Of a DNA stretch of 64,000 bases, positions 5,919 through 9,821 are shown one piece after another; positions within the stretch are counted from its first letter, which is position 1, and the number at the start of each line of letters is the position of its first letter. This DNA comes from Nitrospinota bacterium (GTDB taxonomy: Bacteria; Nitrospinota_A; UBA7883; JACRLM01): positions 1,613,015 to 1,677,014 of the forward strand of contig JACQXA010000004.1 of NCBI GenBank assembly GCA_016208975.1, in the 5' to 3' direction. The position numbers and the translations under genes are program-made. The notes beneath the pieces were generated by a model that had not been told where the DNA came from, ran no database searches, and was given only the letters and a program-made list of their open reading frames with translations.

Positions 5919-7841
5919 ATGGTTAAACCTGCGGAAAACTTTCACGCGGATTTCGCGTTGAACCCGAACATAGTGGAAATGGAGACCGACATCCTGATAG
6001 TCGGCGGCGGCATGGCCGCCTGCGGCGCGGCTTACGAGGCGGCGAGGTGGGCCCAGGGCAAATACAAGGTGACACTGGTGGACAAAGCCGCCATGGACCG
6101 GTCCGGCGCCGTGGCCCAGGGCCTTTCGGCCATCAACACCTACCTGGGCGAGAACACACCGGAAGATTACGTGAAGATGGTGGCCAACGACCTTATGGGC
6201 ATCACCCGGGACGACCTGGTGTATGACGTGGGCAGGCATGTGGACGGCACCGTCCAGCTTTTCGAGGAGTGGGGCCTGCCGGTATGGAAACAGCCCGGCG
6301 ATGAGGGCAAGACCCTGCGGGAGGGTGGCAAGCCCGTCCGCTCCGGCAAATGGCAGGTGATGATAAACGGCGAATCCTACAAGGTGATAGTGGCCGAAGC
6401 GGCCAAACAGGCCCTGGGGATAGACAACATCATAGAGCGGTGTTTCATCGTGAAACTCCTGCTGGACGAAAAAGAGGACAACCGCATCGCCGGGGCCGTG
6501 GGTTTCAGCGTAAGGGAGAACAAGATATACATCTTCAGGGCCAAGACCATACTTATAGCCTGCGGCGGCGCGGTGAACATTTTCCGCCCCCGCTCCACGG
6601 GCGAAGGAATGGGCCGGGCCTGGTACCCGGTGTGGAACGCCGGCTCCACCTACGCCATGGCGGCCCAGGTGGGCGCGGAGATGACCACCATGGAAAACCG
6701 CTTCGTGCCCGCCCGGTTCAAGGACGGATACGGCCCGGTGGGCGCGTGGTTCCTGCTGTTCAAGTCCAAGGCCATAAACGGCCTGGGCGAAGACTATACG
6801 GTGAAGAACAAGGCGCTTTTGGAGCAGTATCCACCTTACGGACTGGCGCATGTTCCCTCCACCTGCCTGCGCAACCATCAAATGATGAAGGAGCTGAAAG
6901 AAGGCCGCGGGCCAATTTTCATGGATACCCCCACCGGCATGGCCAACCTCGCCAAGGACATGGACGCCAAGCAGTTCAAACACCTGGTGGCCGAGGCTTG
7001 GGAGGACTTTCTGGACATGTGTATCGGCCAGGCCAACCTGTGGGCAGGCATGAACATCCGCCCGGAGGAGACCAAGAGCGAGCTTATGCCCACCGAGCCT
7101 TACCTGCTGGGTTCCCACGCGGGAGCCTGCGGCATATGGGTGTCCGGCCCGGAAGACATGGCTCCTGCCGAGTGGCAGTGGGGTTACAACCGCATGACCA
7201 CCGTTAAAGGCCTGTTCACCGCCGGAGACGGCGTGGGCGCCTCGGGGCACAAGTTCTCGTCCGGCTCGTTCACCGAGGGTCGCATAGCGGCCAAGTCCAT
7301 GGTGCGGTTCGCCCGGGACAACAGCGGCTTCAAACCGACCATCACCGTGTCCAAGGAACAGTTGGCGGCGGACATCTACAAGCCGTTCCAGAACTATATG
7401 GACCATAAGGACTACACCACCGACCCGATGATAAACCCCAATTTCATCCGGCCCCGGATGGTGATGTTCCGGCTCAACAAGATGATGGACGAGTATGTGG
7501 CGGGCACCTCCACCTACTACACCACGTCGGAGAAGCTGATGGACGTGGCGCTCCACCTGTTGGGCATGCTCAAGGAAGACGCGGAGAAGATGGCCGCCAA
7601 GGATCTTCACGAGCTTCTGCGGGCGTGGGAGAACTACCACCGCATCTGGACGGCGGAGATGCACCTGCGCCACATCTACTTCCGCAAGGAGACGAGGTAC
7701 CCAGGCTTCTATTACAGGAGCGACTATCCGAACCTGGACGAGAACGAGTGGAAATGTTTCGTCAACTCCCGGTTCGACCCGAAGACCGGAGAGTGGGCGA
7801 TGAAGAAAGTTCCGCACCAGGACTTGGTGGCGAAAAGCTAG
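5919..7841 (+). CDS. aprA: Adenylylsulfate (APS) reductase alpha subunit
   Basis: A 640-residue flavoprotein of the fumarate reductase/succinate dehydrogenase-like group. The FAD-binding Gly motif is GGGMAACGAA at about residues 29-38. The substrate-site arginine lies in ARFKDGYGPVG (R266) and the histidine in LLGSHAGACG (H400), close to the Arg265/His398 positions described for the archaeal enzyme. It interconverts APS and sulfite plus AMP in the cytoplasm as a heterodimer with AprB, 21 bases upstream. All key features are intact and the length is normal. A stable hairpin follows 8 bases after the stop. Confidence 0.98.
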   Translation: MVKPAENFHADFALNPNIVEMETDILIVGGGMAACGAAYEAARWAQGKYKVTLVDKAAMDRSGAVAQGLSAINTYLGENTPEDYVKMVANDLMGITRDDLVYDVGRHVDGTVQLFEEWGLPVWKQPGDEGKTLREGGKPVRSGKWQVMINGESYKVIVAEAAKQALGIDNIIERCFIVKLLLDEKEDNRIAGAVGFSVRENKIYIFRAKTILIACGGAVNIFRPRSTGEGMGRAWYPVWNAGSTYAMAAQVGAEMTTMENRFVPARFKDGYGPVGAWFLLFKSKAINGLGEDYTVKNKALLEQYPPYGLAHVPSTCLRNHQMMKELKEGRGPIFMDTPTGMANLAKDMDAKQFKHLVAEAWEDFLDMCIGQANLWAGMNIRPEETKSELMPTEPYLLGSHAGACGIWVSGPEDMAPAEWQWGYNRMTTVKGLFTAGDGVGASGHKFSSGSFTEGRIAAKSMVRFARDNSGFKPTITVSKEQLAADIYKPFQNYMDHKDYTTDPMINPNFIRPRMVMFRLNKMMDEYVAGTSTYYTTSEKLMDVALHLLGMLKEDAEKMAAKDLHELLRAWENYHRIWTAEMHLRHIYFRKETRYPGFYYRSDYPNLDENEWKCFVNSRFDPKTGEWAMKKVPHQDLVAKS

Positions 7842-7849
7842 TTTTAACG

Positions 7850-7877
7850 GCAGGGGCGGTTCGCTAACCGCCTCTGC
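7850..7877 (+). terminator. Stem-loop just after aprA
   Basis: Twelve base pairs (GCAGGGGCGGTT with AACCGCCTCTGC, one G-U pair) closed by the tetraloop CGCT, starting 8 bases after the aprA stop. The following tract (AACCTTTCT) is only weakly T-rich. It could be an inefficient terminator or an mRNA-stabilising 3' structure. It is relevant because qmoABC-sat lie nearly 2 kb downstream, beyond an inserted island. Confidence 0.55.
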
Positions 7878-8076
7878 AACCTTTCTGGATTCGCATGGCG
7901 GTGCAGGTTTAAAACCTGCCCCTACATTCCCTTGATATTTGCTAGCGGGGCCGGGCAAAACGCACCATCCCCGCCTTTGTTCTTTCACATTGCGGGCAGT
8001 TTGTGTGCGGGGTGTATCCAGCCATTCGGCGGTTTGACGCGGTTTTGTAACTAGAGATAAAATAATCGTTGCATTA
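7878..8076. other. Intergenic stretch between aprA hairpin and the repeat island
   Basis: No gene is seen here. It holds one short palindrome, GCAGGTTT-A-AAACCTGC at 7902-7918, followed by CCCCTACATTC, which resembles a dispersed REP-like motif. The sequence becomes AT-richer towards 8076, immediately before the first copy of the structured repeat. No convincing promoter was identified. Confidence 0.5.
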
Positions 8077-8142
8077 TAAATTCTCCTCCCCTTAGCAAGG
8101 GGAGGTGGCCCGGCTCTGCGGGCCGGAGGGGTTTAATTTAGG
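8077..8142 (+). repeat. Structured repeat copy 1 (upstream of DUF559 gene)
   Basis: The unit starts TAAATTCTCC and ends TTTAATTTAGG. It contains hairpin A (CCTCCCCTT-AGC-AAGGGGAGG, 9 bp) and hairpin B (GGCCCG-GCTCTG-CGGGCC, 6 bp). The terminal AGG at 8140-8142 lies 8 bases before the ATG at 8151, so this copy seems to supply the Shine-Dalgarno-like sequence of the nuclease gene. Confidence 0.9.
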
Positions 8143-8150
8143 TCTTAGCG

Positions 8151-8528
8151 ATGGATGTTTACAACAAACGTGAACAGAAAGATTATCGCGTCAGCCTGCG
8201 AAAAGATTCGCCTAAAGCCGAACGAATTCTCTGGTCCAGGTTAAAGGGCAAACAAGTTTCAGGTTTCAAATTCCGCCGTCAATTTGGAATCGACAAATAC
8301 ATCGTTGATTTTTATTGCGCTGAATTGAAGTTGGTCATAGAGGTTGATGGAGATACTCATTTTATGGGTGACGGTAAAGAAAAAGACAAAGCGCGCCAAC
8401 ATAAAATCGAAAGTTATGGCATGACATTTTTTAGAGTGACAAACAATGATGTTTATAAAAATCTTGATGGCGTATTGATGACCCTGTGGAAAGTGATTGA
8501 GGATTTAGTTAAGAAGCAAAGCGCCTAA
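8151..8528 (+). CDS. DUF559 / Vsr-like endonuclease-fold protein
   Basis: A 125-residue DUF559 protein related to very-short-patch-repair (PD-(D/E)XK-like) nucleases. The opening helices RKDSPKAERILWSRLK and FRRQFGIDKYIVDFYC are followed by LVIEVDGDTH. The candidate metal-binding residues are D53, E64 and D66, with H70 and the RQHKIESYGMTFFRV segment completing the fold. The gene is clearly AT-richer than the apr and qmo genes. It sits exactly between two same-orientation copies of the structured repeat. Copy 1 provides an AGG 8 bases upstream of the ATG, and the stop TAA is the first three bases of copy 2. The native role is unknown. Acting on the flanking hairpins is an inference. Confidence 0.88.
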   Translation: MDVYNKREQKDYRVSLRKDSPKAERILWSRLKGKQVSGFKFRRQFGIDKYIVDFYCAELKLVIEVDGDTHFMGDGKEKDKARQHKIESYGMTFFRVTNNDVYKNLDGVLMTLWKVIEDLVKKQSA

Positions 8529-8594
8529 ATTCTCCTCCCCGAAGTTCGGTGAAGTGGCCCGGCTCTGCGGGCCGGGGGGGGGGGGTAATTTAGG
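8526..8594 (+). repeat. Structured repeat copy 2 (contains the DUF559 stop codon)
   Basis: The copy begins TAAATTCTCCTCCCC, and its first three bases are the stop codon of the DUF559 gene. Hairpin A is replaced by a different small palindrome (CCGAA-G-TTCGG). Hairpin B (GGCCCG-GCTCTG-CGGGCC) is kept, followed by a long G run and TAATTTAGG. The loss of the usual TTAGCAA loop makes this the most diverged same-orientation copy. Confidence 0.88.
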
Positions 8595-8600
8595 CTTGTT

Positions 8601-8659
8601 ATTCGCCCCTCCTTAGCAAGGAGGGGTCGCCGCCAAGCGGCGGGGGAGGTTTAATTCGG
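8601..8659 (+). repeat. Structured repeat copy 3
   Basis: Same architecture with different arms. Hairpin A is CCCCTCCTT-AGC-AAGGAGGGG and hairpin B is CGCCGC-CAA-GCGGCG, ending GGTTTAATTCGG. Both arms of each stem have changed together relative to copy 1, so pairing is preserved while sequence is not. Confidence 0.85.
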
Positions 8660-8694
8660 CTTTGCCATGATTCACAGTAACGTAAAATGAAAGA

Positions 8695-8768
8695 AATTAA
8701 ACCCCCACCCGCCTTCGGCTCCGGCGGAGCCTTCGGCGGACTCCCCCTTGCTAAGGGGGAGGGGTGGG
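8695..8768 (-). repeat. Structured repeat copy 4 (inverted)
   Basis: Read on the minus strand it starts with CCCACCCCTCCCCCTTAGC, forms hairpin A (CTCCCCCTT-AGC-AAGGGGGAG) and a nested hairpin B (CCGCCGAAGG..., with an inner GGCTCCGCCGGAGCC palindrome), and ends GGGTTTAATT. Hairpin B is about 20 bases longer than in copy 6, apparently by an internal palindromic duplication. Confidence 0.82.
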
Positions 8769-8791
8769 AATGGGACGAACGGTAATACTCC

Positions 8792-8857
8792 TAAATGCTC
8801 CTCCCCTTAGCAAGGGGAGGTGGCCCGGCTCTGTGGGCCGGAGGGGTTTAATTTAGG
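8792..8857 (+). repeat. Structured repeat copy 5
   Basis: Almost identical to copy 1: TAAATGCTCC start, hairpin A CCTCCCCTT-AGC-AAGGGGAGG, hairpin B GGCCCG-GCTCTG-TGGGCC, and a TTTAATTTAGG end. The one change in hairpin B gives a G-U pair, so the stem is retained. Confidence 0.88.
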
Positions 8858-8899
8858 TTTTTAAATAGTTGCGTGGTTAACTTGTTAAGCGCCGGGGCG

Positions 8900-8950
8900 A
8901 ATTAAACCCCCACCCGCCTTCGGCGGACTCCCCCTTGCTAAGGGGGAGAA
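8900..8950 (-). repeat. Structured repeat copy 6 (inverted)
   Basis: Minus-strand copy with hairpin A CTCCCCCTT-AGC-AAGGGGGAG, a short hairpin B CCGCC-GAA-GGCGG, then GGGGGTTTAATT. It ends about 40 bases before the next gene, which has its own AAGG ribosome-binding site at the usual distance. Confidence 0.82.
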
Positions 8951-8988
8951 AAAGGCTTTAGATCCTATGGATAACTAAGGTAATTCAA

Positions 8989-9786
8989 ATGGCCGATGAA
9001 GTAACAGTTGCTGACCCAACTCAGGATGCCAGCGCTCCCAAAATATCAAAAGGGGCCGTCGCCTTTCTGGATATTCTTGGATTTAAGGGGATGTGGCAGT
9101 CAACTCATCCAGCTAATCTGACTGCGCAAATTAATTTAATTTCTAACATGGTTGCGAAGGTTCAAAAAAACGTAATAAAAGAAATGTCGACCAAATTGGA
9201 TATAGAAGCTAATCCCGATCAACTGAATTTCAATTTACTTTCAGACACTTTTATCATTACGGTAGAAAATGAAGACCTCTCTCTCGCACTTTTCTTTGTG
9301 GTACAAGCCACTCAGGACTTAATACTACATTTTGCGCTTTTTGACGATGTAAAGCCGCCCAATCTGCCTCCTGCAAGGCCACTTTTCCTGAGAGGAGCCA
9401 TTAGTACAGGCTGGTTTTATCGGAAAAATAATATGTATATTGGTGAAGCTATTGATGATGCGGCTGAATGGTTTAATCAACCGGATTTTGTTGGGGCCAT
9501 ATTGACACCCAGAACAGGCTATTTTTATCGAAAATTATTGAATGATCCCCCAAAAAATCCAAATCGTCTTTTAATAAAATATACTACTCCCACCAAGAAG
9601 GGTAAGTTTGATTTGTATTGTGTTGATTGGATAAATAGGTACATTGCTCTGTATCCTCACAAAAAATTTGACTTGAAGGACTTATATTCAAAATTTATTC
9701 AGAATGGGAATATATCTCCAGGTGTCGTTAGTAAATATCAAAATACCGATGAGTTTAATAAGTACTGTCTTGAGAGAAAAACCTGA
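8989..9786 (+). CDS. Class III nucleotidyl cyclase-like protein (orphan)
   Basis: A 265-residue soluble protein resembling the class III adenylate/guanylate cyclase fold. AFLDILGFKG (D28) matches the first beta strand with a metal-binding Asp. LSDTFII (D86) matches the second metal Asp hairpin. LRGAISTGWFY (about 134-144) and YIGEAIDDAAEW (150-161) match the R.GI.TG and G.AVN.AARL regions. The Asn and Arg of the canonical N-x3-R transition-state motif are replaced (D157, W161), so activity is uncertain. Related cyclases occur in Pycsar anti-phage systems, but no effector gene lies beside this one. The gene is strongly AT-rich compared with aprA and qmoA, which suggests acquisition. It has an AAGG ribosome-binding site 8 bases before the ATG. 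Confidence 0.6.
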   Translation: MADEVTVADPTQDASAPKISKGAVAFLDILGFKGMWQSTHPANLTAQINLISNMVAKVQKNVIKEMSTKLDIEANPDQLNFNLLSDTFIITVENEDLSLALFFVVQATQDLILHFALFDDVKPPNLPPARPLFLRGAISTGWFYRKNNMYIGEAIDDAAEWFNQPDFVGAILTPRTGYFYRKLLNDPPKNPNRLLIKYTTPTKKGKFDLYCVDWINRYIALYPHKKFDLKDLYSKFIQNGNISPGVVSKYQNTDEFNKYCLERKT

Positions 9787-9821
9787 CGATGACAAATGAG
9801 AAAATTTAAGAGGTTGACCAC

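Follow-up and report, generated by a model that had tools for sequence, protein, structure and literature searches.

The window, by which we mean the whole 64-kb stretch of DNA analysed here, holds a gene for a DUF559 protein together with an array of short structured repeats, both lying between an AprA-like and a QmoA-like gene (Table 1). The preliminary description of this DNA had placed the gene between two repeats; we find six copies in all, four more following downstream of copy 2, which is itself decayed. The contacts between gene and repeats described there hold to the base: the 3' arm of copy 1 ends in ..TTTAGG, of which the AGG (8140-8142) is followed by 8 nt and then by the ATG at 8151, and may serve as the ribosome-binding site of the gene, and the stop codon TAA (8526-8528) is formed by the first three bases of copy 2. 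Copy 2 is 69% identical to copy 1 and its stem is degenerate. It also carries a 12-G run (8570-8583), likely a slippage site near the DUF559 stop codon.

Table 1. Features of the array and its surroundings (window positions)
Feature	Position	Strand	Remarks
Interval with the whole array	7842..9821	.	1980 nt, between AprA-like (5919-7841) and QmoA-like (9822-) genes
Repeat copy 1	8077..8146	+	holds triplex motif 8085-8133; outer 3' arm before start codon
Triplex motif of copy 1	8085..8133		CCTCCCCTT / AGC / AAGGGGAGG / 19-nt hairpin loop / GGAGGGGTT
DUF559 (PF04480) EDxHD/Vsr-like nuclease gene (predicted)	8151..8528	+	125 aa; Pfam match 104 bits
Repeat copy 2	8526..8595	+	direct relative to copy 1, degenerate, no scanner-positive triplex
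Repeat copy 8601-8660, triplex motif	8606..8651	+	CCCCTCCTT / AGC / AAGGAGGGG / loop / GGGGAGGTT
Repeat copy 8695-8765, triplex motif	8700..8761	-	CTCCCCCTT / AGC / AAGGGGGAG / 32-nt loop / GTGGGGGTT; inverted
Repeat copy 8792-8861, triplex motif	8800..8848	+	96-97% identical to copy 1
Repeat copy 8900-8950, triplex motif	8905..8948	-	inverted

Copies 1 and 2, which touch the gene, are oriented as direct repeats, an atypical arrangement, and their inverted partners lie further downstream, where the motif at 8700-8761 forms a convergent doublet with that at 8606-8651 and the motif at 8905-8948 forms a second one with that at 8800-8848. Every copy folds strongly as a single strand. Exactly five perfect triplex motifs (9/9 triplets) occur in the 64 kb, all at 8085-8948 and within 900 nt around the DUF559 gene; first-order Markov shuffles amounting to 192 kb returned a single motif scoring 7 and nothing that reached 8, and chance is ruled out as the origin of the cluster. 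An Rfam search at the array found no known RNA family, the sole match being a chance miRNA. Across the source genome (2.97 Mb), a scan for the repeat recovered the window copies and one weak match elsewhere, with no other good copy, and the one further DUF559 match is divergent and Vsr-like. Because the gene-touching copies are direct, copy 2 is decayed and the genome has no scattered copies, the unit in the window may be inactive, an old and partly decayed example of its kind.

The gap between the AprA-like and QmoA-like genes measures only about 5-180 nt in six relatives from the same phylum, and in another member of the phylum an unrelated 1.4-kb insert occupies this junction (L136 88-1498), which seems to be a tolerated insertion site. 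Directly 3' of the array, within the stretch that relatives lack, lies a 265-aa open reading frame (8989-9786) without a Pfam match, possibly cargo or an independent insertion. A different family of short palindromes (GCAGGTTTAAAACCTGCCCCTAC; GGGCGGGTTTTAAATCCGCCC) is present 3' of the AprA-like gene at 7842-7935 and recurs near the weak repeat-like match elsewhere in the genome (L007 1380-1420).

In the intact window copies, a pyrimidine arm, a 3-nt loop and a purine arm are followed by a second loop containing a small hairpin and then by a third strand, a purine tract that mirrors the purine arm (AAGGGGAGG with GGAGGGGTT, AAGGAGGGG with GGGGAGGTT and AAGGGGGAG with GTGGGGGTT; triplets were scored by the rules G:G and A:A/T). 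The window contains three different stems, each with its own matching third strand, and the motif at 8606-8651 departs from copy 1 in both stem and third strand, a triple covariation. The repeats are class II intrastrand triplex motifs (TMs), which correspond to the elements known earlier as BoxC and PIT (Holder et al., 2015, PMC4666352): the definition of a TM, namely a pyrimidine arm, a loop, a complementary purine arm, a second loop and a third strand mirroring the purine arm, describes all five window motifs and also the repeats at other DUF559 loci. What sets the window type apart is its second loop, which at 14-32 nt, and itself a hairpin, lies outside the published short-loop criterion (1-6 nt in the ITxF search); a short second loop is present in many other DUF559-linked TMs. 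Holder and colleagues treated the repeats as orphans, found no mobility gene around the E. coli TMs and obtained no support from footprinting for triplex formation in vivo; where their paper cites Maher, PIT elements are said to have neither promoter nor terminator activity. A link to DUF559, an inward orientation or a covariation of the third strand is not described there (PMC4666352).

The third strand was examined in 258 hairpins from DUF559 flanks that had been selected with the third strand left out of account. In 54% of them the following sequence mirrors the purine arm perfectly, compared with 14% (at most 19% in 300 permutations) when tails were permuted among loci of equal arm length and with 16% for direct copies in the same hairpins. 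For example, GGGGGAAGG is followed by GGATGGGGG in 12 of 14 cases and GGGGGAGGA by AGGTGGGGG in 7 of 9. In addition, purine arms are more alike within units than between them (similarity 0.91 vs 0.74), and their similarity rises with protein identity (rho 0.28). These comparisons of sequence show covariation between third strand and purine arm, and they suggest that the repeats would be triplexes rather than hairpins alone.

The window protein matches PF04480 over positions 3-108 of 109 (E 5e-30, against a cut-off of 20.6 bits), and its Pfam matches are DUF559 and MTES_1575 REase only, the Vsr family PF03852 not being among them. Residues E24, D53, E64-x-D66, H70 and D79 (window numbering) are invariant or nearly so and suggest a nuclease. 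A confident AlphaFold model (pLDDT 91) has as its nearest solved folds 3HRL (NGO0050), an endonuclease-like protein without an assigned function, and I-Bth0305I (PDB 3R3P), a homing endonuclease, whereas Vsr structures rank 14-15 with weak scores; the predicted fold is EDxHD/Vsr-like. By profile (E 1.7e-6) and by fold (Foldseek E 4e-4), I-Bth0305I is the closest functionally characterised relative, although it is a mobile-intron protein and the DUF559 gene lies without intron or intein, boxed by TMs. E. coli YcjD and 3HRL share Pfam family and size with the window protein. Profile methods have grouped YcjD/DUF559 with Vsr (PMC1189080), and Caulobacter VsrA, which has a DUF559 domain, acts in DNA damage (PMC12907096).

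Two sets of DUF559 loci, sampled without regard to repeats, reveal how general the arrangement is: 74 standalone loci found by protein similarity and Pfam, with flanks from many phyla (set 1), and 109 loci from an even sample of 299 Pseudomonadota genomes (set 2). A TM lies within 250 nt of the gene at 69/74 loci in set 1 and at 104/109 in set 2 (173/183 in total), and TMs are present on both sides at 54/74 and 72/109, respectively (126/183). In 115/123 and 157/176 cases (272/299), the third strand of the nearest TM faces inward, towards the gene. TM density reaches 4.7-4.9 per kb near the gene as against 0.12-0.14 per kb away from it, about 35-40 times more. A first control based on flank similarity was weak, owing to spurious open reading frames and to the 30% of controls that also reached at least 20, and the TM scan and a Vsr control were used instead: none of 28 Vsr loci from the same Pseudomonadota genomes has a TM. 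Among divergent or long-fused DUF559 proteins, just 2/14 loci have a TM within 1.5 kb. The association between DUF559 genes and TMs is strong, and DUF559 genes elsewhere thus carry the repeat, which the preliminary description had proposed as a check.

The gene ends also coincide with repeat boundaries at other loci, a second point on which that description had asked for comparison. A median of 11 nt separates the end of the upstream TM from the first in-frame start codon, which places the G-rich third strand of this TM at the position expected of a ribosome-binding site. Of 141 loci, the stop codon lies inside the downstream TM in 18 and beyond it in 86 (104 together) and at most 20 nt before it in 23. 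Read-through into the downstream TM yields C-terminal tails such as PHPNPLPQGER and occurs in all three frames, and the peptide sequence of the tail is therefore not itself conserved.

At the level of whole genomes, we used a strict canonical-TM pattern, which gives 0 or near 0 matches when read backwards and misses variants, including those of the window itself. At least two canonical TMs are present in 55/78 genomes with a strong DUF559 match and in 17/221 without one (299 Pseudomonadota genomes; odds ratio 28.7, p 1.5e-26, the p-value ignoring phylogeny beyond the even draw of genomes), and 2151 of the 2531 canonical copies are in DUF559 genomes. The same trend appears among 97 relatives of the window genome (10/19 vs 13/78, with p-values that likewise ignore phylogeny). 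With the DUF559 genomes removed, Vsr and TMs are not associated (odds ratio 1.0). Some DUF559 genomes are without canonical TMs, as found with a pattern that misses variants. Six Pseudomonadota genomes without a strong DUF559 match (G324, G154, G217, G383, G345 and G234) contain 19-138 canonical TMs each; TM-rich genomes of this kind may have lost the nuclease, be incompletely assembled or use another mobiliser.

E. coli ycjD has the same layout as other DUF559-TM loci, with a TM touching its 3' end. In E. coli WP8-S18-ESBL-07 (L130) the ycjD stop codon, TGA, falls within the loop of an inverted TM that is nearly intact (CCCTCACCC-CAA-CCCTCTCCC-TGAAA-GGGCGAGGG), and this gene is the longer form that PMC12817139, in its account of ycjD, describes for ST69. 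In K-12 the TM over the ycjD stop is decayed and part of it is lost, and a clear TM lies slightly further downstream. The 12-nt difference at the ycjD 3' end between E. coli lineages given in the same account falls in the TM (L124 6205-6420, L130 1980-2250). Strains without ycjD have eefRABCD at the same sapF-fabI site; the passages of PMC12817139 on this site note ycjD as an alternative to eefRABCD and do not mention repeats. We found no clean strain-level insertion in E. coli, the unit replacing other DNA at the site.

Evidence that gene and repeats travel together comes from comparisons between and within genomes. Genome G381 contains two DUF559 units (L178 and L200) 5.7 kb apart, which align at 86% up to the outer repeat edges and no further. 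Their terminal repeats, about 110 nt long, are TMs in which the second loop is structured and measures 68 nt, and conservation is higher in these repeats than in the gene. Likewise, a deltaproteobacterial locus (L044) and one from Dadabacteria (L053) share 80% DNA identity across TM, gene and TM and nothing outside. At the site of one unit of G381 (unit A), 18 congeners retain both neighbouring genes and none has a TM there; the gap is 24-74 nt in 14 of them and 122-123 nt in two (16/18 with a TM-free gap of 24-123 nt), and 641 and 923 nt in the remaining two. In the nearest relative, the unit A site is occupied by an additional gene and by a TM doublet that lacks a gene and belongs to a different subtype. 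At the site of unit B, the nearest relative (G487) has a 293-nt gene-less TM doublet with the same right flank. Inspection by eye of units A and B and of the flanking doublets established no target-site duplication; the GCGGCACC that is shared at unit A is insufficient. Taken as sequence comparisons, these observations indicate that DUF559 units have moved, repeats included, and they support two suggestions of the preliminary description: that gene and repeats form a modular unit, since both the duplicates and the cross-phylum similarity end at the outer repeats, and that this unit may be a mobile nuclease-repeat element, which the same-genome duplicate, the unit-confined similarity across phyla and the empty sites in congeners all support.

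Scattered TMs are often arranged as inverted doublets: in three genomes, all 18 close pairs are inverted, tail-to-tail in 12 cases and in the opposite arrangement in 6. At Pseudomonas sites, flanking genes are conserved and the intervening DNA is different rather than simply empty. Related genera have diverged DUF559 units at the same site between well-conserved flanks (L061/L233/L219 and L103/L110/L203/L257), which reflects either rapid evolution or successive replacements at that position. We considered and rejected a phage or plasmid element, with relatives in 2/50,697 phage and 38/72,556 plasmid records; because relatives are rare on both, the spread would be mainly chromosomal.

We believe, with a probability of roughly two in three, that gene and flanking repeats together constitute a single unit of a mobile system that is widespread and in which DUF559 mobilises the TMs, the unit and the doublets; the repeat has been an orphan for decades, and the DUF559 family probably supplies the mover that it lacked. 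An EDxHD/Vsr-like DUF559 nuclease would be encoded between inverted TM copies; a TM strand exposed during replication or repair would fold into a hairpin, with the mirror third strand capping its purine arm; the DUF559 protein would recognise its own TM subtype and cut at or beside the TM; and repair or copying would carry the TM-gene-TM unit to new intergenic sites, gene-less doublets being moved to such sites in trans. Recognition, cleavage and mobilisation of TMs by DUF559 are what this reading would require of the enzyme, in a role comparable to the one proposed for RAYT transposases in moving REPs and REPINs, although enzyme and repeat are unrelated to theirs.

The DUF559 protein could instead be a homing-type endonuclease that cuts TM doublets or sites, the unit being copied in by homologous repair between TMs while the TMs themselves spread otherwise, by replication slippage or host factors. 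Similarity to I-Bth0305I in fold and profile fits such an enzyme, as do closely related intergenic sites with different TM families and the want of a precise target-site duplication, and the gene-less doublet at the right flank of unit B in G487 is the empty site that homing would leave; an orthologous doublet there is compatible with homing of the gene into existing TMs. Nevertheless, we regard homing as unlikely: most congeners have no TM at all at unit A, and such TM-free empty sites favour a REP/RAYT-like mobilisation of unit and doublets; the duplicated units are alike up to their outer repeat edges, which argues that whole units moved with their repeats; and homing into pre-existing TMs does not predict so strong a dependence of TM abundance on the presence of DUF559.

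We consider it improbable that DUF559 has no part in mobility and is a host repair or structure-resolution enzyme of the Vsr type or a regulator, with TMs as control elements (terminator, attenuator or ribosome-binding site) or co-inherited hitchhikers. TMs do touch start and stop and supply G-rich sequence before the start, and both the grouping of DUF559 with Vsr and the role of Caulobacter VsrA point in this direction. However, this leaves the empty sites, the duplicated unit, the similarity across phyla and the DUF559-linked TM burden unexplained; moreover, true Vsr genes lack TMs, and PIT elements, in the statement that cites Maher, lack the activities of a promoter or terminator. That the repeats are merely triplex-like, G/C-rich palindromes with polypurine runs that share permissive intergenic sites with DUF559, has very little left in its favour: TMs are indeed intergenic and G-rich, and some TM-dense genomes have no DUF559, but the mirror covariation exceeds both the permutation and the direct-repeat controls, and the Vsr control (0/28) and the inward orientation (272/299) already largely refute it.

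The mobile system that we favour resembles the REPtrons formed by RAYT genes and REP or REPIN sequences (PMC2817692, PMC3116915, PMC3733652), in which a nuclease-type gene also lies between two inverted short palindromic extragenic repeats, copies of the repeat, up to hundreds of them and often paired as inverted doublets, are likewise dispersed through the host genome, and the gene is again chromosomal and of low copy number, with a repeat type that follows protein relatedness. REPtrons, however, use an HUH/Y1 tyrosine transposase and repeats with a GTAG/CGTC tag, whereas the DUF559 system has an EDxHD/PD-(D/E)XK enzyme and repeats defined by the mirror third strand, without a tag as defining head. 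Inverted flanks, as in REPtrons, are found family-wide (126/183 on both sides, 272/299 inward), although the touching pair in the window is direct. The DUF559-TM system is like REPtrons by layout and not a member of them by enzyme and repeat. More tentatively, at somewhat below even odds, it may represent a new class of bacterial mobile DNA, made up of autonomous TM-nuclease-TM units and non-autonomous TM singlets and doublets (including E. coli BoxC), whose ends would be read as intrastrand triplexes by an EDxHD nuclease without an HUH, DDE, serine or tyrosine recombinase.

The preliminary description knew of no established account of a DUF559-repeat unit. Our full-text searches of the literature likewise found no description of the link, whereas its parts are known and the repeat itself belongs to the described BoxC/PIT/TM family (PMC4666352). 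DUF559 proteins are common and structurally solved, and the link names a candidate substrate for the enzyme and, conversely, a candidate enzyme for the TM repeats, both of which can be tested in E. coli K-12 through ycjD. If the link is correct, a restriction- or homing-type nuclease would underlie a second REP-like system that arose by convergence, and the link would offer natural comparative evidence of selection on a DNA triplex, beyond the hairpin. Some gene-less doublets (L308 5812-6122 and 7255-7535; L329) have two arms with different self-pairing inner stems (GGATTTTC/GAAAATCC vs GCGATTTC/GAAATCGC), which recall the pairs of type A and type B described for E. coli.
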